The notes under the pieces were generated by a model that worked only from the letters and a program-made list of their open reading frames with translations, ran no database searches and was not told the DNA's origin. DNA of 64,000 nt from Halobellus rarus. GTDB lineage: Archaea > Halobacteriota > Halobacteria > Halobacteriales > Haloferacaceae. Location of the stretch: positions 1-64,000 of the forward strand of contig NZ_JANHDI010000007.1 of assembly GCF_024494595.1 (NCBI RefSeq). Direction: 5' to 3'. Position 1 is the stretch's first letter; every line of letters starts with the position of its first letter. Made by a program: the position numbers and the translations under genes. Shown piece after piece: positions 1 to 62,452 of this stretch.

Positions 1-529
1 GACGGCCGAGGACGGCGACACGTTCAGTGTCGGAGAAGCGACGGTCGAGACCGTGGCCACGCCGGGGCACACGACGGGCATGACGTCGTACCTACTCGAC
101 GAGAGCCTGCTGGCGACGGGCGACGGGTTGTTCATCGAGAGCGTCGCCCGCCCGGACCTCGAAGAGGGCGACGAGGGCGCGCCCGACGCCGCGCGACTGC
201 TCTACGAGTCCCTCCAAGAGCGCGTGCTCTCCCTGCCCGACGACACGCTCGTCGGCGGCGCGCACTTCAGTGATGCCGCGGAACCAGCGGAAGACGGCAC
301 GTACACGGCCCCGATCGGCGACCTGAAAGCGGAGATGGACGCGCTGACGATGGAGGAATCGGAGTTCGTGGAGGTGATCCTCTCGGATATGCCGCCGCGG
401 CCGGCGAACTACGAGGAGATCATCGCGACGAACCTCGGACAGAACGCCGTCGACGACGAGGAGGCGTTCACCCTGGAACTCGGCCCGAACAACTGCGCGG
501 CCAGCCAGGAATCTCTCGCCGGAGACTGA
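1..529 (+). CDS. MBL-fold metallo-hydrolase, 3' part only
   Basis: The reading frame is open from the window edge (frame 2), so the 5' part, including the HxHxDH zinc motif, lies outside. What remains shows the third metal-ligand region as ATPGHTTG near its start and a buried acidic segment (LLATGDGLF) typical of the beta-lactamase fold. The tail carries MPPRPANYEEI and ends LGPNNCAAS, features I associate with haloarchaeal persulfide-dioxygenase/rhodanese-linked MBL proteins. The gene sits 39 bp upstream of two YeeE/YedE sulfur-transport genes on the same strand, which supports a role in sulfane-sulfur metabolism. The exact substrate is inference. Confidence 0.8.
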   Translation, partial: TAEDGDTFSVGEATVETVATPGHTTGMTSYLLDESLLATGDGLFIESVARPDLEEGDEGAPDAARLLYESLQERVLSLPDDTLVGGAHFSDAAEPAEDGTYTAPIGDLKAEMDALTMEESEFVEVILSDMPPRPANYEEIIATNLGQNAVDDEEAFTLELGPNNCAASQESLAGD

Positions 530-7563: not shown

Positions 7564-8244
7564 ATGCGATCGGTCCAGCTCAGACTCGATCTGCCGTCGC
7601 CCTATGTCCACCCGATGCACGCGTTCGTCGCGGAGACGCCGGGGTTCCGAGCGACGCGGCTGCGCCACTGGAACCCCGCCGTCGGCCAGCGGAACACCCT
7701 CGTGTTCTTCGTCGACGGCGACGATATCGACGCGTACACCGCGGCCTTGGAGGACCAGGAGTCGATCCTGGAGTACGAGGTGGCACACGAGGAATCGCGT
7801 CGCGGCTTCCATCTCGTCGTCACCGAAGATCAGCGCAGCGCCGACGCCAGACTGACCGCGGCGTTTCTGGACACGGGCGTCGTCGTCGTGCCCCCGATCG
7901 TCTACCGCGACGACCGGTGTATCGACGTCTCGATCGTCGGCGCTCCCGACGAGGTCGAGACCGCGATCGACGGTCTCCCCTCAGACGTCGGGGTGACTGT
8001 CCGGAAGATCCGATCGTACGACGGTCGGTTCACGGACCCGACGGCGGCGCTCACGCCCCGGCAACGAGAGGCGCTTCGCGTCGCGGTCCGGCACGGTTAC
8101 TACAACGAGACCCGCGAGGCGACGCTCGACGCCGTCGCCGCCGAACTCGGCTGTTCGACCGGCACCGCAGCCGAACACCTCAGGAAGGCGGAGGCGACGG
8201 TGTTGCGACGGGTCGTCGACGCGGTCCCCGGCGGTCGGGCGTGA
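7564..8244 (+). CDS. Bat-type helix-turn-helix transcription regulator
   Basis: 226 residues from the ATG at 7564 (MRSVQLRL), chosen by TATA spacing. The N-terminal about 150 residues are an alpha/beta ligand or sensor domain as in Bat-associated proteins. The C-terminal part is the HTH_10 (Bat) domain: LTPRQREALRVAVRHGYY at about 160-177, then DAVAAELGCSTGTAAEHLR. This family regulates genes such as bacteriorhodopsin or oxygen-responsive genes. It is divergent from nuoCD, with a palindrome between them, so nuoCD is the obvious candidate target. Ligand unknown. Confidence 0.88.
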   Translation: MRSVQLRLDLPSPYVHPMHAFVAETPGFRATRLRHWNPAVGQRNTLVFFVDGDDIDAYTAALEDQESILEYEVAHEESRRGFHLVVTEDQRSADARLTAAFLDTGVVVVPPIVYRDDRCIDVSIVGAPDEVETAIDGLPSDVGVTVRKIRSYDGRFTDPTAALTPRQREALRVAVRHGYYNETREATLDAVAAELGCSTGTAAEHLRKAEATVLRRVVDAVPGGRA

Positions 8245-8281
8245 CGGTCCCGGAGACGGGTCCGGCGGCGATTCTTCCCCT

Positions 8282-9094
8282 TCACTCCGCGCCGATCGTA
8301 CACGCGTCCGTGTACTCGACGTCGTCGATCGAGTCGATCGGACCGTCGCCGCAGACCGGGCACTCGGGGTTCTGCTGGTAGGGGACGGTCTCGAAGCTCA
8401 TCTCCATCGCGTCGTAGAACAGCAGCCGACCGGTCAGCGTCTCGCCGGCGTCTAAGACGAGTTTCACCGCCTCCGTCGCCTGGATGCAGCCGACCGTCCC
8501 GGGGAGGACGCCGAGCACGCCCGTCGTCGCGCAGTCGGGAACCGTCCCCGGTTCGGGGGCTTCGGGGAACAGACACCGATAGCACGGGCCCTCGGGAGTG
8601 AGCGTCGTGATCTGGCCCTCGAACTTGTAGATCGCGCCGTGAGCGATGGGGATCTCCCGGAGGCGACAGAAGTCGTTCAGCAGATAGCGCGTGGGGAAGT
8701 TGTCGGAGGCGTCGACGACGACGTCGTGGCCCGGAACGACCGAGTCGACGTTCTCCTTCGTCAACCGCGTCTCGTAGGTCTCGACGTCGACGTCGGGGTT
8801 CAAGTTCTCGACGAACGCGGCGGCGCTGTCGACCTTCGGCCGCCCGACGTCGTCGTCGCCGTGGATGACCTGCCGTTGGAGGTTGCTCCGCTCGACGACG
8901 TCGTCGTCGACGACGCCGAGCGTGCCGACCCCCGCGGCGGCGAGGTACTGAATCACTGGCGCGCCGAGGCCGCCCGCGCCGACGACGAGGACCCGCGAAT
9001 CGAGCAGGCTCGCCTGCCCCTCGGGGCCGACCTCGTCCATAATGATGTGTCTGGAGTACCGGTCCAACTGCGTCGAGTCGAGTGAGAGTGACAT
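8282..9094 (-). CDS. ubaA: SAMP-activating E1 enzyme (UbaA/MoeB/ThiF family)
   Basis: 270 residues, full length for the family. The ATP-binding motif GAGGLGAP is at 39-46, with DDDVVERSNLQRQ at 63-75, the aspartate loop SDNFPTRYLLND, two zinc pairs C171/C174 and C245/C248, and the likely catalytic cysteine C188 in PDCATTGVLG. In haloarchaea the single E1 adenylates the small archaeal modifier proteins for protein conjugation and also activates sulfur carriers for molybdopterin and tRNA thiolation. It is cytoplasmic. The neighbours (winged-helix protein, Rieske protein) give no direct clue. The ATG at 9094 lies about 27 nt from a TATA-like AGTTATCC (minus strand). Confidence 0.92.
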   Translation of the reverse strand: MSLSLDSTQLDRYSRHIIMDEVGPEGQASLLDSRVLVVGAGGLGAPVIQYLAAAGVGTLGVVDDDVVERSNLQRQVIHGDDDVGRPKVDSAAAFVENLNPDVDVETYETRLTKENVDSVVPGHDVVVDASDNFPTRYLLNDFCRLREIPIAHGAIYKFEGQITTLTPEGPCYRCLFPEAPEPGTVPDCATTGVLGVLPGTVGCIQATEAVKLVLDAGETLTGRLLFYDAMEMSFETVPYQQNPECPVCGDGPIDSIDDVEYTDACTIGAE

Positions 9095-9217
9095 AGGTGT
9101 CCTCGGTCGGCGAGCGGGATAACTTCTCGTGGAACGATCGGCGAACCGTCTCTGTCGGTCACGGGTCGGACCCGGACGCGACTGTACCGCCGACCGCGCG
9201 ACGTCCCGTTCGGAACG

Positions 9218-9511
9218 TCACTCCGCGCAGCAGGCTTCGGCCTCGTCGGCGTCGCCCTCGGCGGGGTGGGTCTCCGGCGCGTCGTCGGTGAGTTGATAGA
9301 GATTCTGCCGCGCGTCCGCGAAGTAGACGTCCTCGTCGACGACGTCGATGCCTTCGAGCCGTTCGAGCGCGTATCGGACCGTCCGAGCCGACAGCATCGA
9401 CTCCTGGACGATCCCCTTCTGGGTCAGCGGTCCGTTGTATTCGAGTACCTTGAAGACCAGTTTCGCGCTCGGCGGGAGGTCGTCGAGACTCTCCTGTTCT
9501 GCCTCTGCCAT
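9218..9511 (-). CDS. Small winged-helix DNA-binding protein with Cys-Cys tail
   Basis: 97 residues. Residues 14-75 form a winged helix of MarR/TrmB type (SAKLVFKVLEYNGPLTQKG, then SMLSARTVRYALERLEG as recognition helix, then a short wing). The tail is acidic and ends EACCAE, so an adjacent cysteine pair could sense redox state or metal. A TATA-like GGTTTATG (minus strand) lies about 30 nt upstream. It resembles small haloarchaeal MarR-like regulators; target genes are not evident. The divergent Rieske gene starts 146 bp away and is a possible target. Confidence 0.82.
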   Translation of the reverse strand: MAEAEQESLDDLPPSAKLVFKVLEYNGPLTQKGIVQESMLSARTVRYALERLEGIDVVDEDVYFADARQNLYQLTDDAPETHPAEGDADEAEACCAE

Positions 9512-9656
9512 TAGGTCGTATTCAGCGGCCGAACCGTCATAAACCTTCGCGAGTCCGGGCGGCGAGGAAGGCCGAATAACGGTCTGATAGCGGGTTACAG
9601 ACGGGTAACCACCCCGGACGTCACGCTTTTGCGACAGCCGTGGCTATCTGCAGTCG

Positions 9657-10067
9657 ATGCCGGAGGGCACGAAGATCGCGGACGTCGACGACGTCCCCGA
9701 ATCGGGATCGTACCGCTTCACGGCGACGGACGCGTTCACCAACGAGACCGAAGTCATTCTGGTCCGATGCGAGGAGAATCCGGGAATCGAGGCGTGGCGC
9801 AACACCTGTACCCACGAGAGCCAGCGGTTCGACCGGGGCGACGGTGCGGCGATCCGCGACGGCGAGATCGTCTGCCCGCGGCACGGCTCGATGTTCGACG
9901 CCTGTTCGGGCGCGTGCGACAACGGACCCGCCGCCGGGACCGAACTCCCCGGCGTGGCGGTCGCCGTCGAGTCCGGTTCGGTGTTCCTGACCGACGACAA
10001 CTACGCTTTCTTGCACGCGGGCGGGGCCGACGACGGGCCGGGGTCGACGTCGCACATCTCGCTCTGA
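9657..10067 (+). CDS. Rieske [2Fe-2S] protein
   Basis: 136 residues. The two cluster-binding boxes are C51-T-H53 (NTCTHES) and C73-P-R-H76 (CPRHGSMFD), as in soluble Rieske ferredoxins and the small NirD/bedB-like family. Two more cysteines, C83 and C87, follow closely. There is no signal peptide or membrane helix, so it is a cytoplasmic electron carrier. It ends 42 bp from the leuS stop, tail to tail. The oxidoreductase partner is unknown. Confidence 0.9.
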   Translation: MPEGTKIADVDDVPESGSYRFTATDAFTNETEVILVRCEENPGIEAWRNTCTHESQRFDRGDGAAIRDGEIVCPRHGSMFDACSGACDNGPAAGTELPGVAVAVESGSVFLTDDNYAFLHAGGADDGPGSTSHISL

Positions 10068-10109
10068 TCGGGCCCGAGCGTGTCACGGCGGACCCGGAGA
10101 GGAACCGCG

Positions 10110-13049
10110 TTACTCCGCTTCGAGTTCGATCGCCGGACGGAACGGTACGGCCCCCTTGCGCGCCTCGACGTCGTCGCCCTCTCGCTGGACGACGATCTCG
10201 GCCTCGAACTCCGACGCGAGGAAGTCCGCAGCACCGTCGTAGGCGTCGCTCTCGTCGATCTCGGCGAGCGTCGAGAGTTCGTCGTCGTCGCGACCGCGGG
10301 CGAACTCGATCAGTTCGCCCACGAGGTCGTTGACTGCGTTCCCGCGCTCGCGGAGGTCGGGATCCTGCATCACCTCGCCCATCACCGCGCCCTGGTCCGC
10401 GCCCAGATCCGCGACCGTCGCGAAGACGTCGTGCTTCCAGTCGGCGGCGACGGTGATCCGGATCCGGTCGGGATCGGCCTCGGGAACGTCCTCCTCGGCG
10501 TTCTGCAGCGACTGCTGGATCCCCTGGATGTCCTCGACGAGCCGTTCGACCTGCGTCTCCGCGGCCTCGATCCCGCGGTCCAGCAGGTCCTCGTCGACCT
10601 CGGGCCACGGGGCGTCCTCCGCGGGCGTGCCCGTCAGCCGCTCGTGGAGCTCGTTCGTGAGGAACGGGACGAACGGCGCGAGCAGGCGGAGGCGGGTCTC
10701 CAAGACCTCCCGCAGCGTCCACCGCGCGGCGGGCCGCGAGCCGTTCGTCCGGCGGCGGTACCACCGCAGGTCCTCCTCGAAGTCGTAGAAGGCGGCCTGA
10801 CTCGCCGTTCGCGTCTCGGAGCCCTCCATCGCCTCGGTGACGGTCTCGACGGTGCGCTGCAGCCGCGACAGCAGCCATCGGTCCGCCGTCGCGAGTTCGG
10901 GACGTTCCTCGGGGCCCGGATCGTCGATGACGTCCTGCGCGCGGTTCCAGAAGCGTTCGAGCTGATTTCGCACCGAGGCGACCTGCTCGGCGCGCCAGTC
11001 GTAGTCCTGCCACGGCTCCGCCGAGTTCAGGAGGAAGAACCGAACCGTGTCCGCGCCGTACTCCTCGATGGCCTTGCCCGGGAGGACGACGTGACCTTTC
11101 GAGGAGGACATCTTCTCGCCTTCGAGCAGGCCCATTCCCATGATGACGATCCCCTCGGGCCACTGCGACTGGTCGAACAGTTCGGCGTGGTGGAACAGGT
11201 AGAACGTCAGGTGATTCGAGATGAGGTCGTTCGCGGAGAACCGGTAGGTGACCGGGTACCAGTAGAGCCACTCCGAGCGCAGTTCCAGCGCGCGCTCGTC
11301 GGGGTCGTCGACGGCGTCGGATCCATAAAAGAGCGCGTCGAAGAACTCTCTGTCGAGGTCCGCCGCGGGGATCTCATCGAGCCGGTGGGCGATCGTGTAG
11401 TACGCCATGTAGATCGTCGAGTCCGACAGCGGCTCGATGACGAACTCGTCGTCCCACGGCAGGCGGGTGCCCAGCCCGTAGTTCCGGATGCAGGGCCACT
11501 CGTTCAGCCAGTCGATCGTGTGATCGTACTCGCCGCGGGTGTTCTCCGGGATCGCCTCCATCCGCGAGACGACGTCGTGAGCCTTCTGCTTCCAGGCCTC
11601 GTCGTTGTAGCGGAGGAACCACGTGTCCTGCTCGGCGACGACGACGTCGCCGCCGCAGCGGCAGACGACCTCCTCGGAGAACTCCCGCATCGTCCCGAAC
11701 GCGCCCTCGTCGCGGTAGGCGTCGCGGAATCTGCCTCTCACGTCCTCGACGACCTCGCCGGCGAACTCGCCGTACTCGTCGTTCAGTTCTCCTCGGTGGA
11801 ACTCGCTGTTGTACAGTTCCTTGGTGGCCGCTTCGAGCGCGGGATCGGTGCTGGATTCGATCCCGGCCTCCTCGACCGCCGTCTTCGCGGGGATCTCGCC
11901 GTAGCCCTCGATCGAGAGGATCGGAATCGGTTCGATCGCCTCGACCTCGGCGGGATCGATCCCGTACTCGGCCATCCGCTCGTCGTCGGCCTTCGCTTCC
12001 TGGAGGGCGACGTAGTCGTCCGGCGAGTGCGCCGGCACCGACATCACGACGCCGGTGGCGTTCTCGGCGTCGACGAAGTCGGCGGGAAGAACGAGGACTT
12101 CGTCGCCGGTGATCGGGTTGGTGACGCGCTCGCCGACGAGGTGCTCGCCCGAGACCGTGCGCTTGGAGACGACCTCGTGGCCCTGCAACTGGAGCTTCTC
12201 GACCGCCGCGGCGGAGACGAACCACTCCTCGCCGTCGACGTCGGCGATCACGTAGTCGGCGTCGGGGTCGATGTAGGCGTTCGTGACGCCGCGGACGGTC
12301 TCCGGCCGGAGCGTCGCCATCGGCACGACCGTGTCGCCGTGACCGAAGCGGATCAGGGTGTACTCCTGGAACTCCGCCTCCTCGCCTTCGAGTAAGTCGT
12401 GGGTCGTGACCGGCTGTTTCTCGTTGGTGCAGTACTTGACGGGGTGGAGGCCCTTCTCCAGGAGGCCGCGGTCGCGCAGCGTCTCGTACTGCCAGGTGAT
12501 GAACTTCGAGTACCGGTCGTCGTTGGTGGTGAACTCCCGCCGCCAGTCGACCGAGAGCCCGAGGTCCTTCATCCCCTTCTTGTAGTGCTCCTCGATGAAG
12601 TGCCGGGCGTAGCCCATCGGCGTCTCCAGGTCTTCGAGGGTGTCCTCGGCGACGTTGTAGGTGTCCCGGAGGACCGAGAGCTGTTCCTCCTCGCCCTTCT
12701 TCAGCCGCTCGACCGCGCCGATGATCGGCGTGCCGGTGACGTGCCAGGCGATCGGGAAGAGCACGTTGTCGCCCTGCTGCCGTCGGTAGCGGGCGTAGAC
12801 GTCGGGGACGGTGTAGGTCCGAGCGTGCCCGATGTGCATCCCGCCGCTGGGGTACGGATAGGGGACCGTGATGAACGTGGGATCGTCGCTGTCGGCGTCA
12901 GTGGCGTCCGAGACGTCGGGGGCGTCATCGGAGGCATCAGCATCGACCGCGGCCGCCGCTTCGGCCTCGGCCGGATCGGCCTCGTAGCGACCCTCCTCGG
13001 CCCACCGCTCGCGCCAGCGCGCTTCGAGTTCCTGCGGGTCGTAGTCCAT
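10110..13049 (-). CDS. leuS: Leucyl-tRNA synthetase
   Basis: 979 residues from the ATG at 13049 (MDYDPQELEARW). Class Ia synthetase: the HIGH motif appears as MHIGHART near residue 70 and KMSKS as EKMSSSKGH near 645. A large editing domain lies between (EEWFVSAAAVEKLQLQG), and the C-terminal anticodon-binding region is archaeal/eukaryotic in type. An Ala/Asp-rich insertion occupies about residues 24-55, before the first conserved block, and is probably a disordered acidic halophile insert. It charges tRNA-Leu in the cytoplasm. A very long plus-strand frame over the gene is a GC-driven shadow. Confidence 0.97.
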   Translation of the reverse strand: MDYDPQELEARWRERWAEEGRYEADPAEAEAAAAVDADASDDAPDVSDATDADSDDPTFITVPYPYPSGGMHIGHARTYTVPDVYARYRRQQGDNVLFPIAWHVTGTPIIGAVERLKKGEEEQLSVLRDTYNVAEDTLEDLETPMGYARHFIEEHYKKGMKDLGLSVDWRREFTTNDDRYSKFITWQYETLRDRGLLEKGLHPVKYCTNEKQPVTTHDLLEGEEAEFQEYTLIRFGHGDTVVPMATLRPETVRGVTNAYIDPDADYVIADVDGEEWFVSAAAVEKLQLQGHEVVSKRTVSGEHLVGERVTNPITGDEVLVLPADFVDAENATGVVMSVPAHSPDDYVALQEAKADDERMAEYGIDPAEVEAIEPIPILSIEGYGEIPAKTAVEEAGIESSTDPALEAATKELYNSEFHRGELNDEYGEFAGEVVEDVRGRFRDAYRDEGAFGTMREFSEEVVCRCGGDVVVAEQDTWFLRYNDEAWKQKAHDVVSRMEAIPENTRGEYDHTIDWLNEWPCIRNYGLGTRLPWDDEFVIEPLSDSTIYMAYYTIAHRLDEIPAADLDREFFDALFYGSDAVDDPDERALELRSEWLYWYPVTYRFSANDLISNHLTFYLFHHAELFDQSQWPEGIVIMGMGLLEGEKMSSSKGHVVLPGKAIEEYGADTVRFFLLNSAEPWQDYDWRAEQVASVRNQLERFWNRAQDVIDDPGPEERPELATADRWLLSRLQRTVETVTEAMEGSETRTASQAAFYDFEEDLRWYRRRTNGSRPAARWTLREVLETRLRLLAPFVPFLTNELHERLTGTPAEDAPWPEVDEDLLDRGIEAAETQVERLVEDIQGIQQSLQNAEEDVPEADPDRIRITVAADWKHDVFATVADLGADQGAVMGEVMQDPDLRERGNAVNDLVGELIEFARGRDDDELSTLAEIDESDAYDGAADFLASEFEAEIVVQREGDDVEARKGAVPFRPAIELEAE

Positions 13050-19322: not shown

Positions 19323-21197
19323 TCAGGCCGGATGGACGGTGATCCGCTGTTTCCGGTCGATCGCCTGCTCGAGTTCGTCGGCGATGGCGCTGCCTCTCGA
19401 CACCTGGATGTCGCCGCCGCGGCCGACCGTCGCGGTGAAGAGGTACTCGCCGTCGGCGCGGATCTCGACGGTTTCGCCGACGTGTTCGTCCATCCGGACG
19501 ACGACGTGCCGTGAGGTCACCTCGGGTGTGACCACGATGCCGTCGTCGGGGCCGCCGGACCCACCCGCTCCACCGCTCCCGCCGCTGCCGGCGGCGGACT
19601 CGCCGCTGGGTCGTCCGGGCTTCTCGTCGTGGGTGCGCACGTCGATGTCGATGCCGAGTCGGTCCTCGACGTCGGAGATGCGGCCGCCGCCCTTGCCGAT
19701 GACGTAGGAGATGTCGTCCTCCTCGACGTAGACGACGGCGTCGTTCTGGCCCTTCAGTTCGACGTCGACGTGCCCGCGGGCGATCGATCGGATCTCGCGT
19801 TCGATCTCCTGGCGGGCGAGGCGACCGACGCCGGTCTCGTCGTCGCCGTCGCCGTCGCCGATCGGCACCGTGACCACCTGGCGGTTGAACGTGTAGATCT
19901 CGTACTCCGGCTTCCCGGTCTCGAAGTCCGCGACCTGGATGACCGGGCGGGCGAGGTCCTCGGCGGTGAGGCCCTCGGGGACCTTCACCTCCGTCGTGAC
20001 GTCGTAGACGGTGTCGACGCGACCGTCTTCGATGTACACGACCGTATCGACGACCTGCGGGATCATCCCGAGCTCGACGCGGCCGACGAGTCGCTGCAGG
20101 GCGTCGATGGCGCGGGTGGCGTGGACGACGCCGACCATTCCGACGCCGGCGAGGCGCATGTCCGCGAAGACGCCGAAGTCCTTCGTCTTCCGCACCTCGT
20201 CGTAGATGGTGTAGTCCGGCCGGACCAAGAGTAGCGAGTCGGCCGTCTTCTCCATGTCGCCGCCGAGGGCGGTGTACTGGGTGATGTCGTCGCCGACCTG
20301 GAGGTCCCGGGGCTTCTCCATCGTCTTGACCGCGTAGTCCGAGTCGGTGAGGAACTCTGCGACCGCCTGCGCGAACGTCGACTTCCCCGCACCGGGCGAC
20401 CCGGAGATGAGGACGCCGCGCTGGCGCTCTTTCAGCCGATCCTTGAGTTCGTCGGCGAACTCGTAGTCCTCCAGATCGGTCTTGACGATCGGTCTGACGG
20501 CGGTGATCTCGATGCCGTCGGAGAAGGGCGGACGGGCGACCGCGATCCGGTAATCGCGGAACTGGACGATGCTCATCCCCGGTTCCGAGAGTTCGAGAAA
20601 GCCCTCCGAACTGCTTCGGGCGGTCTCCTCGATGTCGTCGGCCCACTCCTTCATCGTCGCCTCGTCGGTCACCTCCTCGTCGATCGTCTGGTAACTCATC
20701 TCGCCGATGGCCCCGCGCTTGGCCTTCGGCTTCGTCCCCGTCTTCAGGTGGACGGACATCGTCTGCTCGTCGAAGAACTTCTCGATGACGAGTTCGCCGG
20801 AGCCGCGGACGCGCGGTTCGACGTACTCGACGTCGAGGCCCTTCGCCTTCGCGACCTCTGCCTGGACGACGTCGCTCGTGAGCAGCGTCGCGCCCTCCTC
20901 CTCGGCGACGTCGCGGATCAGCGCGTCGATGTCCCCCTCGTGGGCCCCGGTGGCCTCGCTGGGCTTCGTCCGGCGGCCGACGTATCGCACGTCGACGCGG
21001 CCCTCGTCTGCGAGTTCCGCGAGCCGCTGGAGCTCTTCGAGCCCCTCCCATCCCGTGTCGAAGCCGTCGTTGGCCTGCGATTCGAGTTCGCCGACGACCG
21101 CCTCCGGGACCAAAATCGGCCCCGCGTCGTCGTCGGACTCGACCCGCTCGGACACGCGACCGTCGATGACCGCGCTCGTGTCCGGCACTATCTTCAT
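19323..21197 (-). CDS. PIN domain-ATPase-KH protein (PINA-like)
   Basis: 624 residues from the ATG at 21197 (MKIVPDTSAVIDG). An N-terminal PIN nuclease fold (1-145; acidic residues in VPDTSAVID and HEGDIDALIRD) is followed by a VirB11/PilT-type ATPase with Walker A SGSPGAGKST at about 265-274. A KH RNA/DNA-binding domain (YVIGKGGGRISDVEDRLG) lies near 497-514. A Gly/Ser-rich linker leads into a small beta-rich C-terminal domain. The family is universal in archaea; the Sulfolobus member PINA is a hexameric Holliday-junction branch-migration ATPase working with Hjc/Hjm. Same role here is inference. Confidence 0.92.
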   Translation of the reverse strand: MKIVPDTSAVIDGRVSERVESDDDAGPILVPEAVVGELESQANDGFDTGWEGLEELQRLAELADEGRVDVRYVGRRTKPSEATGAHEGDIDALIRDVAEEEGATLLTSDVVQAEVAKAKGLDVEYVEPRVRGSGELVIEKFFDEQTMSVHLKTGTKPKAKRGAIGEMSYQTIDEEVTDEATMKEWADDIEETARSSSEGFLELSEPGMSIVQFRDYRIAVARPPFSDGIEITAVRPIVKTDLEDYEFADELKDRLKERQRGVLISGSPGAGKSTFAQAVAEFLTDSDYAVKTMEKPRDLQVGDDITQYTALGGDMEKTADSLLLVRPDYTIYDEVRKTKDFGVFADMRLAGVGMVGVVHATRAIDALQRLVGRVELGMIPQVVDTVVYIEDGRVDTVYDVTTEVKVPEGLTAEDLARPVIQVADFETGKPEYEIYTFNRQVVTVPIGDGDGDDETGVGRLARQEIEREIRSIARGHVDVELKGQNDAVVYVEEDDISYVIGKGGGRISDVEDRLGIDIDVRTHDEKPGRPSGESAAGSGGSGGAGGSGGPDDGIVVTPEVTSRHVVVRMDEHVGETVEIRADGEYLFTATVGRGGDIQVSRGSAIADELEQAIDRKQRITVHPA

Positions 21198-38310: not shown

Positions 38311-38739
38311 ATGACCGAAGATCACCTCCAGGCGACGATCAGCCTCCGCGGCGTGCTGTTCGCGCCCTGTGGCCGCGTGCTCGTCGTCCGACGCGCCAGC
38401 GACGGCGGCTGGGAGCTTCCCGGAGGGCGGCTCGGCACACACGAGGACGCGCCCGCCGGCGTCCGCCGGGAGATCGCCGAGGAGACCGGGATCGACGCTC
38501 GGATCGGTCGACCGATCCACGCGGTGTCGTGGCGAAACGAGGGCGACCGCGGGCGGTTCGCGGTCTACTACTGGTGTGAGGCGACTGGTGATCTCGACGT
38601 TCGTAACGGTGACGACCCGGTCACGCTCAGCCACGAGCACACCGATTACGCGTGGCTCCCGCCCGAATCGGCGACCGACCGCCTGAGCGACGCCCAGGAG
38701 CGGGCCGTCGACGTCGCGACCGAGGTGTACGAGCCGTGA
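38311..38739 (+). CDS. Nudix hydrolase
   Basis: 142 residues. A perfect Nudix box is at 39-61 (G-x5-E-x7-REIAEETGI). Closest in style to MutT/ADP-ribose-type enzymes that hydrolyse nucleoside diphosphates linked to another group. The substrate cannot be read from sequence. The last four bases (GTGA, 38736-38739) overlap the mutL start, so the two are translationally coupled, which invites a nucleotide-pool-cleaning role alongside mismatch repair. Confidence 0.9.
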   Translation: MTEDHLQATISLRGVLFAPCGRVLVVRRASDGGWELPGGRLGTHEDAPAGVRREIAEETGIDARIGRPIHAVSWRNEGDRGRFAVYYWCEATGDLDVRNGDDPVTLSHEHTDYAWLPPESATDRLSDAQERAVDVATEVYEP

Positions 38740-41306
38740 GCGGAGACGGAGTGCCGCCGGACGCCGACCACCCGGAGGAAGCGCCGGCGGGCGAGGATCA
38801 CGCGGAGGAAGCGCCGGCGGACGCCGACCGTGCGGGTGACACGCCGGAAAGCGAGGACCGACCGAGCGGAACGCCGACGATTCGCGAACTCGACGACCGG
38901 ACGATCCGACAGATCGCGGCCGGCGAAGTGGTCGAACGCCCCGCCTCGGCCGTCAAGGAACTCGTCGAGAACAGCCTCGACGCCGACGCCGACCGGATCT
39001 CGGTCGCCGTCGACGCCGGCGGCACGCAGGGTATCCGAGTCCGGGACGACGGCGTCGGAATGGACCGCGAGTCGGCCGAACGCGCTATCGAAGAGCACAC
39101 CACCAGCAAGATCGACGGCATCGACGACCTCGAGGCGGGCGTCGGCACGCTGGGCTTCCGCGGCGAGGCGCTGCACACCATCGGTGCGGTCTCCCGACTC
39201 ACGATCCGGACGAAGCCCCGGGCGCGTTCGGCCGGCGACAGCGGCGAGAACCGCGAAACACGCGGCGGCGCCTCCGGCACCGAAATCCGGGTCGAGGGCG
39301 GCGACGTGACCGCCGTCGGGGCCGCGGGCTGCCCCGAGGGAACGGTCGTCGAAGTCGAGGACCTCTTTTTCAACACGCCAGCGCGCAAGAAGTTCCTGAA
39401 GACGACCGCGACGGAGTTCGACCACGTCAACACGGTCGTCACGCACTACGCCCTCGCGAACCCCGACGTCGCCATCTCGCTGGAACACGACGGCCGCGAG
39501 GTGTTCGCCACCGAGGGCCGCGGGAGCCTCCAGTCGGCGGTGCTGTCGGTGTACGGCCGCGAGGTGGCCGAGTCGATGATCGAGGTCGAGTACGACCCCG
39601 CGGATGAGGCCGATCCGCCGACCGAGACCGGCTCGGCGGTCGGGGCCGAATCCGACTCGACGGACGGGACGGGGACGGTCGAGGGCGTTCGGGGTCTGGT
39701 CAGCCACCCCGAAACCACCCGAAGCACCCGCGAGTACCTCTCGACGTTCGTCAACGGTCGGTACGTCACGGACGGCGTCCTCAGGGAGGCCGTCCTCGAC
39801 GCCTACGGCGGGCAGTTGGCGGGCGACCGATACCCGTTCGCCGTGCTGTTCGTCGACGTTCCTGCCGACACTGTGGACGTGAACGCCCACCCGCGAAAGA
39901 TGGAGATAAGATATGACAACGAATCGGGCGTCCGGGCCGCCGTCACCGACGCTGTCCGGACCGCGTTGCTCGACGAGGGGCTGATCCGGTCGACCGCGCC
40001 CCGGGGCCGTTCCGCGCCCGAGGAGACCGAGGTCCGACCAGAATCGCCCGATTCAGAGGTCCGGGGCGGCGCGGGACACACACCCCAACCGGGTGCCGGT
40101 TCTGACGCCGCGGGCGAGGCCGACGCCGCGGGATCCTCCCCTGGCTCGGAATTCGAACGCGCCGAACCCGGAACCGCGGCCGAAGTCGACCCGACCGACG
40201 ACGACGCCTGGACCGTCGACGGACTCGGCCGCGGTACCGGTCGGGGCGGTTCGGCACCGACCGACCCGACCGACCGATCCGGCTCCGACTCGGACGTGTC
40301 TCCGGGCCTTGACTCGACTCGGGGCGCGGAGACGGCATCGAACCCGAACGACACGGGACGAGCGTCGGCGTCGACCGCTGACGACGTCCCGGAGTCGACG
40401 CCGACCGAGCGGACGCGGGCCTCCGAGCGGCGACCGAACGTCGAGCGGCGATCGAGATCCGAGCAGCGACCGGATCACGGCCGACAGCCGACGCTCGAAC
40501 GCGACTCCGACGCCGAAGGAGCGAGCCGGCGAGATCGACGATCGGACGCCGACGGAGCGAACCGGCGAACTCAGTCCGGATCGCCTTCGGGAGACCGACC
40601 GGGAGAGACGGGTGGAGGCGACCGGGAGTCGCGGCCCACGGGGATCGTCGGTCCGACCGTCCAGCGCGACCTCCGCGGCGAGGCGGCGACGCTGGAACCG
40701 CGATTCGACGCGCTGCCGTCGATGCGGATCCTCGGGCAGTTACACGACACCTACGTCGTCGCCGAGGCCGACTCGGGGATGATCCTCGTCGATCAGCACG
40801 CCGCGGACGAGCGGGTGAACTACGAGCGCCTCAAAGCCGAACTCGACGGCGACGTCGTCACGCAGGCGTTGGCAGAGCCGGTCGAACTCGAACTCACCGC
40901 CCGCGAGGCGGCGTTATTCGCCGAGTACCAGGCGGCGCTCTCGGACCTCGGGTTCCGCTCCGAGCGGGTCGACGACCGGACCGTCGCGGTCGAGACGGTG
41001 CCGGCGGTCTTCGCCGAAGCGCTCGATCCGGAACTGGTCCGTGACGTCCTCTCGGCGTTCGTCGCCGAGGGCGACGGCGGGGCCGAGACGGTCGAGGCGG
41101 TCGCCGACGACCTGCTCGCCGACCTCGCGTGTTACCCCTCCGTCACCGGGAACACGTCGCTCACCGAGGGTTCGGTCGTGGAACTCCTCGAAGCGCTCGA
41201 CGGTTGCGAGAACCCCTACGCCTGCCCGCACGGCCGCCCCGTGCTCATCCACGTCGACGGCGACGAGATCGGCGATCGGTTCGAGCGGGACTATCCGGGA
41301 CATTGA
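38736..41306 (+). CDS. mutL: DNA mismatch repair protein MutL
   Basis: 856 residues from a GTG at 38736 overlapping the Nudix stop. About 45 acidic residues precede the GHKL ATPase domain, which shows RQIAAGEVVERPASAVKEL, VENSLDADA, DDGVGM, TSKI and LGFRGEAL. A disordered linker of about 200 residues, rich in Ser, Arg, Asp and Thr, follows. The C-terminal domain keeps DQHAADERVNYE (near 685) and CPHGRPV, the motifs of endonuclease-type MutL. It nicks the strand to be repaired after MutS recognition. MutS is at 2673-5423. Confidence 0.96.
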   Translation: MSGDGVPPDADHPEEAPAGEDHAEEAPADADRAGDTPESEDRPSGTPTIRELDDRTIRQIAAGEVVERPASAVKELVENSLDADADRISVAVDAGGTQGIRVRDDGVGMDRESAERAIEEHTTSKIDGIDDLEAGVGTLGFRGEALHTIGAVSRLTIRTKPRARSAGDSGENRETRGGASGTEIRVEGGDVTAVGAAGCPEGTVVEVEDLFFNTPARKKFLKTTATEFDHVNTVVTHYALANPDVAISLEHDGREVFATEGRGSLQSAVLSVYGREVAESMIEVEYDPADEADPPTETGSAVGAESDSTDGTGTVEGVRGLVSHPETTRSTREYLSTFVNGRYVTDGVLREAVLDAYGGQLAGDRYPFAVLFVDVPADTVDVNAHPRKMEIRYDNESGVRAAVTDAVRTALLDEGLIRSTAPRGRSAPEETEVRPESPDSEVRGGAGHTPQPGAGSDAAGEADAAGSSPGSEFERAEPGTAAEVDPTDDDAWTVDGLGRGTGRGGSAPTDPTDRSGSDSDVSPGLDSTRGAETASNPNDTGRASASTADDVPESTPTERTRASERRPNVERRSRSEQRPDHGRQPTLERDSDAEGASRRDRRSDADGANRRTQSGSPSGDRPGETGGGDRESRPTGIVGPTVQRDLRGEAATLEPRFDALPSMRILGQLHDTYVVAEADSGMILVDQHAADERVNYERLKAELDGDVVTQALAEPVELELTAREAALFAEYQAALSDLGFRSERVDDRTVAVETVPAVFAEALDPELVRDVLSAFVAEGDGGAETVEAVADDLLADLACYPSVTGNTSLTEGSVVELLEALDGCENPYACPHGRPVLIHVDGDEIGDRFERDYPGH

Positions 41307-41363
41307 CCGGGAGATTCGTCGACCACCCTATGGCCGCACTGTTGCGCGTCATCGCCACCCACG

Positions 41364-41369
41364 TTTATT
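41364..41369 (+). promoter_or_regulatory. TATA box for the tubulin-like gene
   Basis: TTTATT centred 27 nt before the ATG at 41393, 58 bp past the mutL stop. The GTPase gene therefore has its own leaderless promoter rather than depending on mutL. Confidence 0.6.
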
Positions 41370-41392: not shown

Positions 41393-43696
41393 ATGCCCAA
41401 CGGTGGAATCCCGCTGTCTCCCCTTGAGCCCCAGGCAGTCACAGTGATCGGGATCGGAGCAGGAGGCTGTCGAATGCTCGAAGCCGTGAACGACGCCGTC
41501 GACCGAGCCGATCCGGGCCCGGCGTTTTCTTCCGTCGCGATCGACTCTCGTGCCCAGGACCTCGAACGGCTCGCGCCGGCGGGGGCCACTTCGATCCACT
41601 TAGAACCCCCGACGACCCTGCTTGCGAAGGATCGAGCGGAAGCTGGCTACCTCGACGAATCGGTCGAACTGCCGCCCGGCGGTGGAACGGCCCGTCAGCG
41701 GGCTCTCGGTCGGTACTACGTCGACAACGCCGAAAACGTCGATTCGGTCGTCAACGGGCTCGCTGAGGTTCTCGACGAGGCATCCGAACAGCTTGCGGAC
41801 CCCTCGGACACGCACCACGTCTGGCTCCTCAGCTCGCTCGGTGGGGGCACCGGAAGCGGGTTAGTTCCCCTGATCGCCGGCCTCGTCGACACGCTCTCGC
41901 CACAGGCGGACGTTTTCGGGATCGGATCCGTACCGCGGCTGGATATGTTGGCAGACGACCCCAGTCCCCCAGCGGGCGAGCCGTCGCTCTACTACAACGC
42001 TTACGCAGCCCTGCGCGAACTCCGCGCTCTGCTCGGCCTCGACGACGCGGATCCGTATCCCCTCGAACTCGAACTCCGGTCGCAACCCCGATCTCTGGTG
42101 TCGGATTCGATCACGCTCGAAGAGAGCCCGATCGGGGCCTACGGGGTCTTCGGGATGGACCAGGCGGAGGTCGCAAACGGATCCTATCGCGAGGCGATGA
42201 ACCGAACCGTGGCCAACGTGATCGTCGATTCGACCGTCGAGACCGACCTCGTCGCCGGTCGGCCGGCGGGTGGGTGGACGAACGACGCCACGCTGTTCTC
42301 GTTCGACGGGGCGGGTTTCAGCGCCCCCATCGAGGAAGTCCGCGAGTTCTACGAGACGGCAGTGGAACTCGAAGGTGTCGACGCGGAGAGCGAGCGGATC
42401 GAAACGCGACTGCCCTCGGTCGAGGATGCCCTGGACGTCCTTCAGTCGGCCGAATCCCGACCTCTGGAGACGCTACTCGACGAGGCGGACGACCTCCCGA
42501 TATCCCGAGACGTGATAAAGCGCGTTCGGAACGAGGTGGCGTCGCTCGAACTCCCGTCGCCCACCGACTCGGGAGTCGACGCCGCCATCGAGTCCGTGAA
42601 AAAGGAGATCAGCGTGGACGAATCCGTCGACGACGTCCTCGCTGCCTATCTCGTCACGCAGCGAGTGGAACGACGAGTCGACGAGGAGTTGCGCTCGCAT
42701 CCGTTCTCCGAGGAGATCGAGGCCCTGACCGACGAGGTTCGGGACCGCCTCGACGACCCGATTCCGGGCGAGAACGCCGATCCCGAGACGCGGTGGGAGC
42801 GGACGCTCGAACCGCTCCTCCGGCAGCGCCAACGGCTGCTCGAGCGCACCATCGACGATACGCTGGCCGTGCGGCTGTTCCATCGTCGCGAACAGCAGTC
42901 GAAACTGGAGCGGCTGCGAGCGCGATACGACAGGCTCCGGGAGCTCCGGGCCGAGTACGAACGCCTCCGAGAGACCAGTTCGCTGATCTCCGAGCGGCAC
43001 GAGGCGGCACGCGAGGACCGTTGGATCGAGCAAGAGCGTCTCGAGCAAGAGGTCGAGGAACTCCGAGAGAAGCGAACCGAACTCACCGACAGGCGAGCGC
43101 AACTCGAACAGCGACTCGATGCGCTCGACGAATCTCTCGCCGATCCATCGTCCGAGCGGTATTCGACGCTTCCGGTTGAGGCCCTGGAAAACGCCGATCC
43201 CGACCAGGTGCTGTCGGCCGACTCTCTCCGCGATCTCGTCAGCGCCGACGTCGTCGCGGCCGTCGCGGTCGCGGACGCGCTGGAGGAGACGGTGGCCCGG
43301 CTCGACGAGACGGTCTGTGACCGCCTCCGACCCGTGGTGGACCCGGTTCGGTACCCGCAACTCGCGCTGTCCGTCTCCGACTCCGACCGGGACCTGATCG
43401 GGATGACTGACAACGCGATAACCGTTGACGGCGCTGAACTGCCCGATCCAACGGTCCTCGAACGGTTCGACGACGCCTATGACGTCCGACACGCCGATTC
43501 CTTCTCGGTCCACGCGGTCGCGACGTACGCCTCGATCGCACTCGAGAACACCAGCGAGTTCGGAACGATCCACGAGTGGTACACCGATCCCGACCGCGAC
43601 GTGGGCGACCTCTTCGATCGGACGGGCGCGGAGGATCGAATCCCACGGTGTTTCGCGTATCCAGAACTTCTCGCGGCGGGCGCGTCCGACGAGTAG
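41393..43696 (+). CDS. Tubulin/FtsZ-like GTPase with long coiled-coil
   Basis: 767 residues. The N-terminal about 320 residues are a tubulin-superfamily GTPase: nucleotide loop [12 protein letters not shown] (18-29) and tubulin signature GGGTGSG at 150-156 within [19 protein letters not shown]. Standard FtsZ is about 370 residues and CetZ about 380. Here about 200 residues of helix follow, then a strongly charged coiled coil (about 480-590) and an alpha/beta tail. It resembles the tubulin-like (Tubulin_2) family rather than FtsZ or CetZ. A cytoskeletal or membrane-scaffold role is inference. Flanked by mutL and KDG kinase. Confidence 0.82.
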
Positions 43697-43812: not shown

Positions 43813-44772
43813 ATGAGCGACATCGTGACCTTCGGCGAGACGATGCTCCGGCTCTCGCCGCCCAGAGGCGAGCGACTCGAACGGACCTCCGAGCTCGGCG
43901 TCCGAACGGGAGGCGCAGAGAGCAACGTCGCCGTGGCGGCTGCCCGCCTCGGCCGCGATGCGACCTGGATCTCGAAGCTGCCGGATTCGGCGCTCGGACG
44001 CCGGATCGTCTCGGAACTGCGGAGCCACGGCGTGCGCACGGACGTCGCGTGGGACGGCTCCGACGACGCGCGACTGGGGACGTACTACCTCGAACACGGC
44101 GGGGAGCCGCGCGGGACCGAGGTAATCTACGACCGGGCCGGCGCCTCGGTGACGACCGCGACCCCGGCGGAACTCCCGGTGGGCACACTCGACGACGCGA
44201 GTGTCTGCTACACGAGCGGCATCACGCCGGCGCTCTCGCCGACGCTCGCGGAGACGACCGACGCCCTCCTCCGGGCGGCTCGGGAGACGGGGACGACCAC
44301 GGCGTTCGACCTGAACTACCGGGGGAAGCTCTGGTCGCCGATGAAAGCGGGCGAGTGTTACGAGTCGCTGTTCCCACACATCGATCTGCTCTTCGCCGCC
44401 GAGCGCGACGCGGCGACCTGCCTCGGTCGCGAGGGCGATCCGATAGAGGTGGCCAACGGCCTGCTTCGGGACTTCGACTTCGAGACAGTCGTCCTCACCC
44501 GCGGGGACAGCGGCTCCGTCGCGGTCCACGACGGCGAGGTGTACGAACAGGACGTTTACGACGCGGAGACGTTCGATCCGATCGGGACGGGCGACGCCTT
44601 CGTCGGCGGCTTCCTCGCGAAGCGACTCGACGGCGGCGACGTCCCCGACGCGCTGGCGTACGGCGCGGCGACCGCGTCGCTGAAGCGAACCGTCGACGGC
44701 GATCTGGCCGTCGTCACGCCCGCGGAGGTCGACGCCGTCGTCGAACGGAGCGCGGGCGGTATCTCGCGGTGA
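43813..44772 (+). CDS. kdgK: 2-keto-3-deoxygluconate kinase, PfkB family
   Basis: 319 residues from the ATG at 43813 ([17 protein letters not shown]). PfkB signatures are [15 protein letters not shown] near 34-48 and the C-terminal [12 protein letters not shown] near 256-267, with the catalytic aspartate in [14 protein letters not shown] is the sugar-acid-binding region. It phosphorylates KDG in the semi-phosphorylative Entner-Doudoroff pathway used by haloarchaea. No other pathway gene is next to it. The following gene starts 7 bp later. Confidence 0.88.
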
Positions 44773-60964: not shown

Positions 60965-62452
60965 ATGGCTACCGATAATTTGGGCGACGTCGAGAGCAGG
61001 CTTCGAAAGTTGATCCACGACACTAGCTTCTACTCCATCGCCGTCTCCCTCTCGTCGCTGCTGGGGCTGGTCTCGCTCCTCATCTTCACCCGGGCGTTCC
61101 CGCCCGCGTCGTACGGTCGCTACGCGTCTTCGGCGGCGATCGTCGCCATCGTGAGCACGCTTCTGTTCGGGTGGCTCGAGCAGGCCGTCGTGCGGTTCAC
61201 ACCCGAGTTCGAAAACCGGAAGGTCATTCAGAATCTCCTCTCCGTCTTCACGCTCGTGTCCGGAGCGTTCGTGCTCGTCGCTATCGGCGGCTATCTGCTG
61301 TTCGGCGACTCGCTCGGTGCGTACCGACTGTTCTTCTTCCCGGTGGTCGCGCTCATCGTCGCGCAAGGGTTCTTCCAGCCGCTGATTATGTTCTTCCGCG
61401 GCACGCTGGAGTCCCGCTCGGTCGCGAAGTTCCGGACGTTCAACGCGTTCGGCCGACTGCTCATCTCGCTGGTGCTGGCGCTCGTCGTCCTCAACCACAT
61501 CGTCGGCTGGCTCTGGGGGACCGCGCTCGCGATTCTGGGGACGATCGCCCTGATGTTTATCACGACCGACGAATTGCGCGTGGTCCCGCGGATACAGAAG
61601 GACGTCCTGCGTCGGATGATGAGCTACGGCGTGCCGATGATCGGATTCATCATCGGCGAACCGTTCTTGACGCAACTCGATCGGATCCTGTTGGAGGTGA
61701 TCCGCGACAGCGCTTCCGTCGGCATCTACTCCTCGAACTACACGCTCATCAACCAGGGGCTCAGACTCGCGTACTTTCCAGTCCTCCGGGCGATGCAGCC
61801 GATCGTCGTCAACGAGTGGGACGGCGACAACGAGGACGAGGTCGGCGACATCATCTCGAACTTCTCGCGGTACTTCGTACTCCTGGGGATCCCGGTGATG
61901 GTGCTCGGTATGGGGCTGGGCCGACCGCTGAGCGGATTGTTGCTCGATCAGGGGTACAACCAGGGGTACACGATCATTCCGTTCGTCGCCGGCGGCGTGT
62001 TCTTCTGGGGGTTGGCCGACGCTGGTCAACGGGGATTAGAGCTGAAGGAGGCGACGCTGACGCTCTCGATCGGCGTGCTGCTGGCGATCGGCTCCAACTT
62101 CCTCCTGAACCTCCCGATGATCTACTACTTCGGGTATATGGGGGCTGCGGCCGCTACCCTCATCAGTTCGGGTATCTACGTCGTCTTCGTCTGGTACGTC
62201 TCGAGTCGACACATCAACTGGAGTTTCCCCGAACACACGATTCGAAACACCGTCCTCGCCGGGACGCTGATGGGCCTTCCGCCCGCCGCCGTGTATCTCA
62301 CGGGAAGCTACACCCACGTGCTCGTGGTCGCCGCGAGCCTCTTGGGGGCCCCGATCTACCTGACGGTCGTCTACGTCCTGGGAGAGTTCCGCGAGGACGA
62401 AATCCGGGCCGTCTCGGATCTGTTCGACACGGTCGTCGGCCCCCTCCGCTGA
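60965..62452 (+). CDS. Wzx-like polysaccharide flippase
   Basis: 495 residues with about 12-14 helices. MATE/MOP fold of the polysaccharide-biosynthesis family, beginning with an amphipathic N-terminus and FYSIAVSLSSLLGLVSLLIF. YTLINQGLRLAYFPVLRAM and GYTIIPFVAGGVFFWGLADA are the repeat halves. It moves the lipid-linked glycan across the membrane, equivalent to AglR in Haloferax. Rightward, flanked by leftward genes on both sides. Confidence 0.9.
   Translation: MATDNLGDVESRLRKLIHDTSFYSIAVSLSSLLGLVSLLIFTRAFPPASYGRYASSAAIVAIVSTLLFGWLEQAVVRFTPEFENRKVIQNLLSVFTLVSGAFVLVAIGGYLLFGDSLGAYRLFFFPVVALIVAQGFFQPLIMFFRGTLESRSVAKFRTFNAFGRLLISLVLALVVLNHIVGWLWGTALAILGTIALMFITTDELRVVPRIQKDVLRRMMSYGVPMIGFIIGEPFLTQLDRILLEVIRDSASVGIYSSNYTLINQGLRLAYFPVLRAMQPIVVNEWDGDNEDEVGDIISNFSRYFVLLGIPVMVLGMGLGRPLSGLLLDQGYNQGYTIIPFVAGGVFFWGLADAGQRGLELKEATLTLSIGVLLAIGSNFLLNLPMIYYFGYMGAAAATLISSGIYVVFVWYVSSRHINWSFPEHTIRNTVLAGTLMGLPPAAVYLTGSYTHVLVVAASLLGAPIYLTVVYVLGEFREDEIRAVSDLFDTVVGPLR

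Follow-up and report, generated by a model that had tools for sequence, protein, structure and literature searches.

The window, which is the whole stretch of 64,000 nucleotides of Halobellus rarus DNA that was analysed, contains an intact gene of 767 codons with an ATG start at 41393..43696 (+). The gene encodes a tubulin-like protein of the FtsZ-like-1 family (FtsZl1, Pfam Tubulin_2) and represents a Halobellus lineage that is called unpaired here, with reference to the membrane partner of its relatives. At 767 aa, the product is about twice the size of FtsZ or CetZ, and the reading frame agreed exactly with that of the large tubulin-like protein reported in the sequence-only reading, an earlier note made from the letters of the window. 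The start at 41393 was preferred over that at 41474 because the alignment with the orthologs begins at residue 1 and because the T1 nucleotide loop requires it. One ortholog (genome G384) is 63% identical across residues 1-766, and a second, in another genome (G333), is 40% identical. Together with a pN below pS (Fisher p 1e-10), these orthologs make the 767-aa frame a real gene, far beyond chance.

A promoter-like element, ACGTTTATT, was found at 41361..41369 (+), 23 nt 5' of the ATG, and both the element and its spacing are kept at the orthologous loci L078 and L079. The sequence ACG(T/C)TTATT thus lies exactly 23 nt ahead of the ATG in all three unpaired orthologs, in line with the separate promoter that the sequence-only reading had assigned to the gene, and it would be compatible with an archaeal TATA-type box ahead of a leaderless start. 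The N-terminal peptide MPNGGxPLSP (41393..41425, +), in which x is variable, is identical in the three orthologs, with codons that differ synonymously, and an extension of this type is missing from most paired FtsZl1 members. Near the C-terminus, the FAYPEL motif (43652..43669, +) is conserved, with Y756 invariant and A755, P757 and E758 at 90% or more in 23 sequences.

With regard to the gene location, mutL (38736..41306, +; gene name taken from the earlier note) ends 86 nt upstream, and a PfkB-family sugar kinase (43813..44772, +) is present on the downstream side of the junction; neither neighbor is part of the system. The adjacency to mutL was correctly noted before, but no meaning could be attached to it: the mutL-kinase junction exists without FtsZl1 in 13 of the 17 genomes of the genus, with gaps of 94-544 nt, and a functional link to mutL was rejected for this reason. 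A functional link to the kinase was also rejected, as the kinase occurs in 17/17 genomes and FtsZl1 beside it in 3/17. The junction was occupied in two genomes, G000 and G384. In G333, FtsZl1 precedes the kinase, with no mutL match within the 20 kb read, and no mutL match was found within the 8 kb read in G138. A PfkB relative also lies near the FtsZl1 gene on contig C5 of the H. rarus genome, but PfkB is a common family.

Elsewhere in the window, a MutS protein is encoded at 2676-5423 (-), about 33 kb from mutL, a protein that joins a PIN domain to an ATPase domain of type II/IV secretion type at 19326-21197 (-), and a polysaccharide flippase-type gene lies at 60965-62449 (+). Judged by eye, several genes from about 46700 on resemble sugar-nucleotide and glycosyltransferase genes, and a surface-polysaccharide cluster perhaps begins a short way downstream.

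Family membership

The profile searches that the sequence-only reading had proposed as a check came out in favor of a tubulin relative. The 767-aa protein scored 49.2 bits (E 6e-13) against Pfam Tubulin_2 (PF13809), for which the curated cut-off is 27, and 29.6 bits, slightly under the cut-off of 33, against PF00091 Tubulin. When the Protein Data Bank was searched by sequence, the sole match was FtsZ (E 0.5-1); a profile of 13 relatives matched CetZ2 of Haloferax (E 4e-7), and a profile of the GTPase domain matched a CetZ/FtsZ profile made from the same and other haloarchaeal genomes (E 7.6e-10). The protein belongs to FtsZl1 and is not the extra type of tubulin that had been supposed, since this family was already described by Makarova & Koonin in 2010 and the relatives carry the database annotation 'tubulin-like doman-containing protein'.

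According to the available part of the 2010 paper (PMC2875224), FtsZl1 was described from Halorhabdus utahensis as an FtsZ-like domain followed by a coiled coil and by a C-terminal domain that could not be related to FtsZ. Its operons contain vWA proteins, kinases, and GTPases, and membrane remodelling was proposed; a vWA protein, a Ser/Thr kinase or a diverged GTPase is present in the majority, not all, of the predicted operons. The T6-H7 elements were unidentifiable to these authors, and the same part of the paper gives three options, namely excess divergence, a new filament-forming mode, or no filaments. The Tubulin_2 group is termed FtsZ-like, sparse, and divergent in the available part of PMC9871819. 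An experimental study of FtsZl1 was not found in our literature searches.

Compared with Huta_2051 (1051 aa), the H. rarus protein shows the same FtsZ-like GTPase domain with GGGTG(S/T)G, coiled coil, and C-terminal domain, and the family was first seen in a haloarchaeon, as here. The PF13809 score above the cut-off, the three-part layout, and the GGGTG(S/T)G loop are the marks of the family, and all were found. The H. rarus copy is shorter, at 767 aa; Tubulin_2 frames of the size of Huta_2051 (about 1040-1300 aa), which are many, were left out of the analysis. The two also differ in context: the neighbors here are mutL, the PfkB sugar kinase, and DUF6663, and the neighborhood examined contained no adjacent vWA, Ser/Thr kinase or GTPase gene, a context that is frequent but not required in FtsZl1, and no adjacent membrane partner. 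The H. rarus genome also contains four other Tubulin-family genes of the FtsZ/CetZ type and, on contig C5, a second Tubulin_2 gene. CetZ1 and CetZ2 of Haloferax volcanii (4b46 and 4b45) count with others as the nearest of the solved folds (VIA Z 22-23) but are without the coiled-coil insertion, and their counterparts of FtsZ/CetZ type are encoded separately in the H. rarus genome. TubZ and FtsZ share the tubulin fold and the nucleotide loops but are about half the size of the 767-aa protein.

Nucleotide site

The GTP-binding loop and the GGGTGSG signature were intact, as had been reported. The T1 nucleotide loop VIGIGAGGC occupies residues 18-26 (41444..41470, +), and its G22 is present in 22 of the 23 rows of an alignment of haloarchaeal sequences; one row (L084, 10161-12401) starts too late, owing to the choice of start, and is without the T1 loop. 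A T3-like loop with Arg-x-Arg (41684..41716, +; R101 in 22/23 rows, R103 in 21/23, R107 in 23/23) appears to stand at the place of the T3 phosphate loop of FtsZ and tubulin. The T4 signature GGGTGSG lies at residues 150-156 (41840..41860, +), and G151, G152, T153, G154, G156, G98, R107, and N202 are invariant in the 23 sequences.

The T7-equivalent loop (residues 283-299; 42239..42289, +) is without NxDxxD/E and had a pLDDT below 50 at 289-297. This acid motif was not found at the T7 position in the 767-aa protein or its two unpaired orthologs, whereas the FtsZ of the same genome has it as NLDFAD. The pattern occurred in 4/23 rows, in three of them before H7 and only in L082 near T7, and in none of the unpaired three; in its strict form it also misses control CetZ sequences and tests for an FtsZ-type T7 only. 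Residue 285 is an Asp directly after the predicted H7 helix. Because the GTP loops are intact and the T7 acid motif was not found, GTP binding by the 767-aa protein is likely and catalysis in the usual way is doubtful, and hydrolysis on assembly may be lost.

Predicted fold and coiled coil

An AlphaFold2 model was built from 13 sequences, with a pLDDT of 81.3 and a pTM of 0.68. Foldseek placed TubZ, FtsZ, and CetZ at the top, with E values from 8e-8 (TubZ) to 6e-6. When these matches were re-examined with VIA-align, CetZ1 aligned with 310/330 residues (chain 1..367) to model residues 14..748, at Z 23.1 and an rmsd of 3.8 A. The structure prediction proposed as a check in the sequence-only reading thus returned a tubulin fold. 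That reading had named two findings that would speak against it, of which the lack of a tubulin fold did not materialize, whereas the T7 acid motif was indeed not found in the three orthologs.

Several FtsZ chains were aligned over 273-275 of about 304 residues (M. tuberculosis FtsZ, 273/304) at model residues 13..715, and the alignments to CetZ, FtsZ, and tubulin, which are known as ranges and not as residue pairs, end at model residues 714-763. The GTPase half of FtsZ is too small for that many aligned residues, and so part of the match lies beyond the coiled coil. In the order of the model, a helix at 263-282 is followed by a strand at 300-310, helices at 313-583, and strands at 654-713, with strands and helices throughout 590-761. 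The helix at 263-282 (42179..42238, +) is the predicted H7 core helix; its likeness to H7 of CetZ was judged by eye. The helical, coiled-coil region (residues 313-583; 42329..43141, +) covers about 270 residues that are mostly helical in the model, the longest helix having 89 residues (495-583), and 43% of residues 319-589 are charged, close to the charged coiled coil of about 300 residues estimated before.

This region is apparently inserted within the tubulin fold, and the C-terminal part (residues 588-748; 43154..43636, +) is a probable tubulin C-terminal (activation) domain. The separate C-terminal domain of the sequence-only reading is probably not separate, as the VIA alignments span whole CetZ and FtsZ chains. 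No relation of this domain to FtsZ was found in the 2010 study (PMC2875224), whereas the model suggests one. Both domains of the tubulin fold, as in FtsZ and CetZ, are predicted by the full-length model, and the C-domain assignment comes from this one prediction: the C-terminal stretch modelled alone did not fold (pLDDT 51.8), and its profile showed no similarity to the CetZ profile (E 0.31). After removal of the coiled-coil columns, the profiles aligned over the full length, but the score stems from the N-terminal part. In the model, the coiled coil would come after S7 and before the remainder of the C-terminal domain, which is the position of the M-loop. The M-loop is the lateral-contact loop of microtubules. 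Its region is variable in CetZ, with 14-26 residues in CetZ1 and 3-6 in CetZ2, according to the available part of PMC9856176.

Membrane partner of the paired relatives

Gene prediction and clustering in 18 fetched loci and the 64-kb window revealed a recurrent neighbor of FtsZl1. Partner profiles, built from 14 of the 16 paired loci, matched 16/16 fetched loci with a paired FtsZl1, of which L021 and L084 were new to the profiles, and gave no match in the three unpaired loci (the window, L078, and L079). The adjacent single-pass partner that characterizes the haloarchaeal FtsZl1-membrane-partner module was not found beside the copy at 41393-43696; the one significant partner match in its own genome is on contig C5. 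Where the start is complete, the partner has a signal-like N-terminus. Its outer part is beta-rich, as judged from the sequence, a transmembrane-like segment near the C-terminus was present in 13/13 proteins tested, and many tails end in acidic residues.

Among 391 genomes of the class Halobacteria, the partner was present in 20, all of them among the 22 with this FtsZl1 subfamily (hypergeometric P 1e-31). It lay beside an FtsZl1 match in 20/20 genomes, with a largest gap of 1.8 kb, and on the same strand in 18/20; FtsZl1 copies per genome are lower bounds, with at most two candidates scored in each. No partner match was found in the other two of the 22; of these, G411 has an FtsZl1 open frame of 182 aa and G429 (81% complete) has split frames. 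The partner linkage is new here, unless the partner is one of the A1-A2 families of the supplement to PMC2875224. Two or three FtsZl1 paralogs share one partner gene at four tandem loci (L083, L084, L086, and L087), which is a precedent for more than one subunit per partner and is usual in some species.

The tandem paralogs comprise a short form of about 770 aa and a long form of about 950 aa. An M61-peptidase-like protein was seen near FtsZl1 in L083, L086, and the single-copy locus L089, and the L083 copy, which was the one scanned, has C-terminal zinc ribbons. Two modules are apparently decaying: two in-frame TAG stops interrupt the FtsZl1 frame beside an intact partner at G276:C2:30350-31585, and a partner frame at G200:C34:47555-48157 has an in-frame TGA. 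At L090 (G433), 7637-11848, a paired FtsZl1 relative has a 1418-codon open frame, a possible fusion or gene-calling artefact.

Distribution and evolution of the unpaired lineage

The 767-aa protein was matched in 8/17 genomes of the genus, in two of them (G138 and G434) by short stretches in CetZ/FtsZ-sized frames only. In the tree, the unpaired copies formed one clade with 100/100 support. They lie directly upstream of the same PfkB kinase, so that the three Halobellus species share a single chromosomal site for the gene. On the kinase tree, the pattern of presence needs at least two changes, either two gains or one gain with losses. All three genomes with an unpaired copy also hold a paired FtsZl1 elsewhere; the paired copy is present in 6/17 genomes of the genus, and the probability of this co-occurrence by chance is about 0.03, a value for three genomes of one genus with kinship ignored.

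The dN/dS of the unpaired copy was 0.54 (dS 0.46), compared with 0.094 (dS 0.31) for the C5 paralog in the same two species and 0.14-0.30 for the flanking genes. In all three unpaired pairs, pN was well below pS (p 1e-10 to 5e-7). These results show that the unpaired lineage is fast-evolving and under purifying but weak selection. FtsZl1 has the lowest GC3 (0.78) of the four genes compared at the site, and no frameshift or stop was found in the three species.

Proposed explanation

We give about even odds (roughly 0.5) to the explanation that the window encodes an FtsZl1 protein with an inserted arm, unpaired and GTP-binding, that acts in trans with the paired module. FtsZl1 would be a tubulin-fold, GTP-binding protein in which a coiled-coil arm of about 270 residues splits the GTPase domain from the C-terminal domain and takes the place of the M-loop of tubulin and CetZ. 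In most of the haloarchaeal relatives, the genes of FtsZl1 and of a single-pass membrane protein make up a strict module of two. The membrane protein is predicted to consist of a signal peptide, a beta-rich ectodomain, one transmembrane helix, and a short, often acidic tail, and it probably anchors GTP-dependent filaments at the membrane; the coiled coil may serve as a spacer or cross-linker in these assemblies. The window copy would most likely bind GTP and join the module on contig C5 in trans, as an accessory or co-polymerizing subunit encoded away from it, perhaps docking via the conserved N-terminal peptide. A filament or tether role for the 767-aa protein is a possibility. Rather more tentatively, with doubt prevailing, FtsZl1 proteins may in general be full tubulin folds with an arm of about 270 residues replacing the M-loop and may form, with the single-pass partner, a transmembrane filament system unnamed before, which the window copy would join in trans as a free subunit.

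For FtsZl1, a widespread tubulin-superfamily branch, the available part of PMC2875224 left open whether the missing fold elements are absent or only unrecognized, and our model favors the latter, with the coiled coil within the fold. A partner gene that occurs only beside FtsZl1 genes gives direct access to function in haloarchaea that are amenable to genetics, and the unpaired lineage can serve as a natural test case for subunit action in trans. New here are the split fold predicted by the model, the strict membrane partner seen in the relatives, and the partner-less Halobellus lineage, whose three copies, that of the window among them, are the exceptions and stand in genomes that carry a paired copy elsewhere.

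The promoter-like element kept at a fixed spacing, the intact GTP loops, and the same site in three species would also suit a filament of its own, cytoskeletal or membrane-remodelling, that acts free of a partner in shape or tethering. However, the partner adjoins a paralog in all 20 partner genomes, so that the relatives seem to need it, and the site is empty in 13/17 genomes, so that most of the genus grows and keeps its shape without the gene; we regard this filament as unlikely. The fast evolution (dN/dS 0.54 versus 0.09 in the C5 paralog and 0.14-0.30 in the neighbors) also fits a decaying or diverted role, and a relaxed paralog that came from a once-paired module and is heading to loss would further account for the lowest GC3 of the four genes compared (0.78) and for the patchy presence with its two or more changes on the kinase tree. 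Such decay is nevertheless quite improbable, given pN clearly below pS in three pairs (p 1e-10 to 5e-7), a frame open in three species, and the retention of the promoter-like element and the N-terminal peptide. A role in a biological-conflict (anti-virus) system, with diversification through an arms race, has an equally small chance. Tubulin genes known from GTPase/vWA conflict systems (available part of PMC7159879), patchy distribution, fast evolution, and the paired copy on a Halobellus limi plasmid could be cited for it. On the other side, a PADLOC scan of the 767-aa protein gave no specific match, and its five hits were weak (E 0.0012-0.041) and all fell on the C-terminal half, which holds the coiled coil; the adjacent genes are mutL, the PfkB kinase, and DUF6663, and dN/dS is below 1 overall.

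A phage origin of the gene was rejected, as no match was found in 50,697 phage records or in IMG/VR. The 767-aa protein was matched by two plasmid records, with a query coverage of 62% and 45%. In H. limi, the paired FtsZl1 module is located on the 398-kb plasmid NZ_CP031312 at 125617-127905 and is about 94% identical to the C5 copy, whereas identity between the unpaired copies on the chromosome is only 63%.
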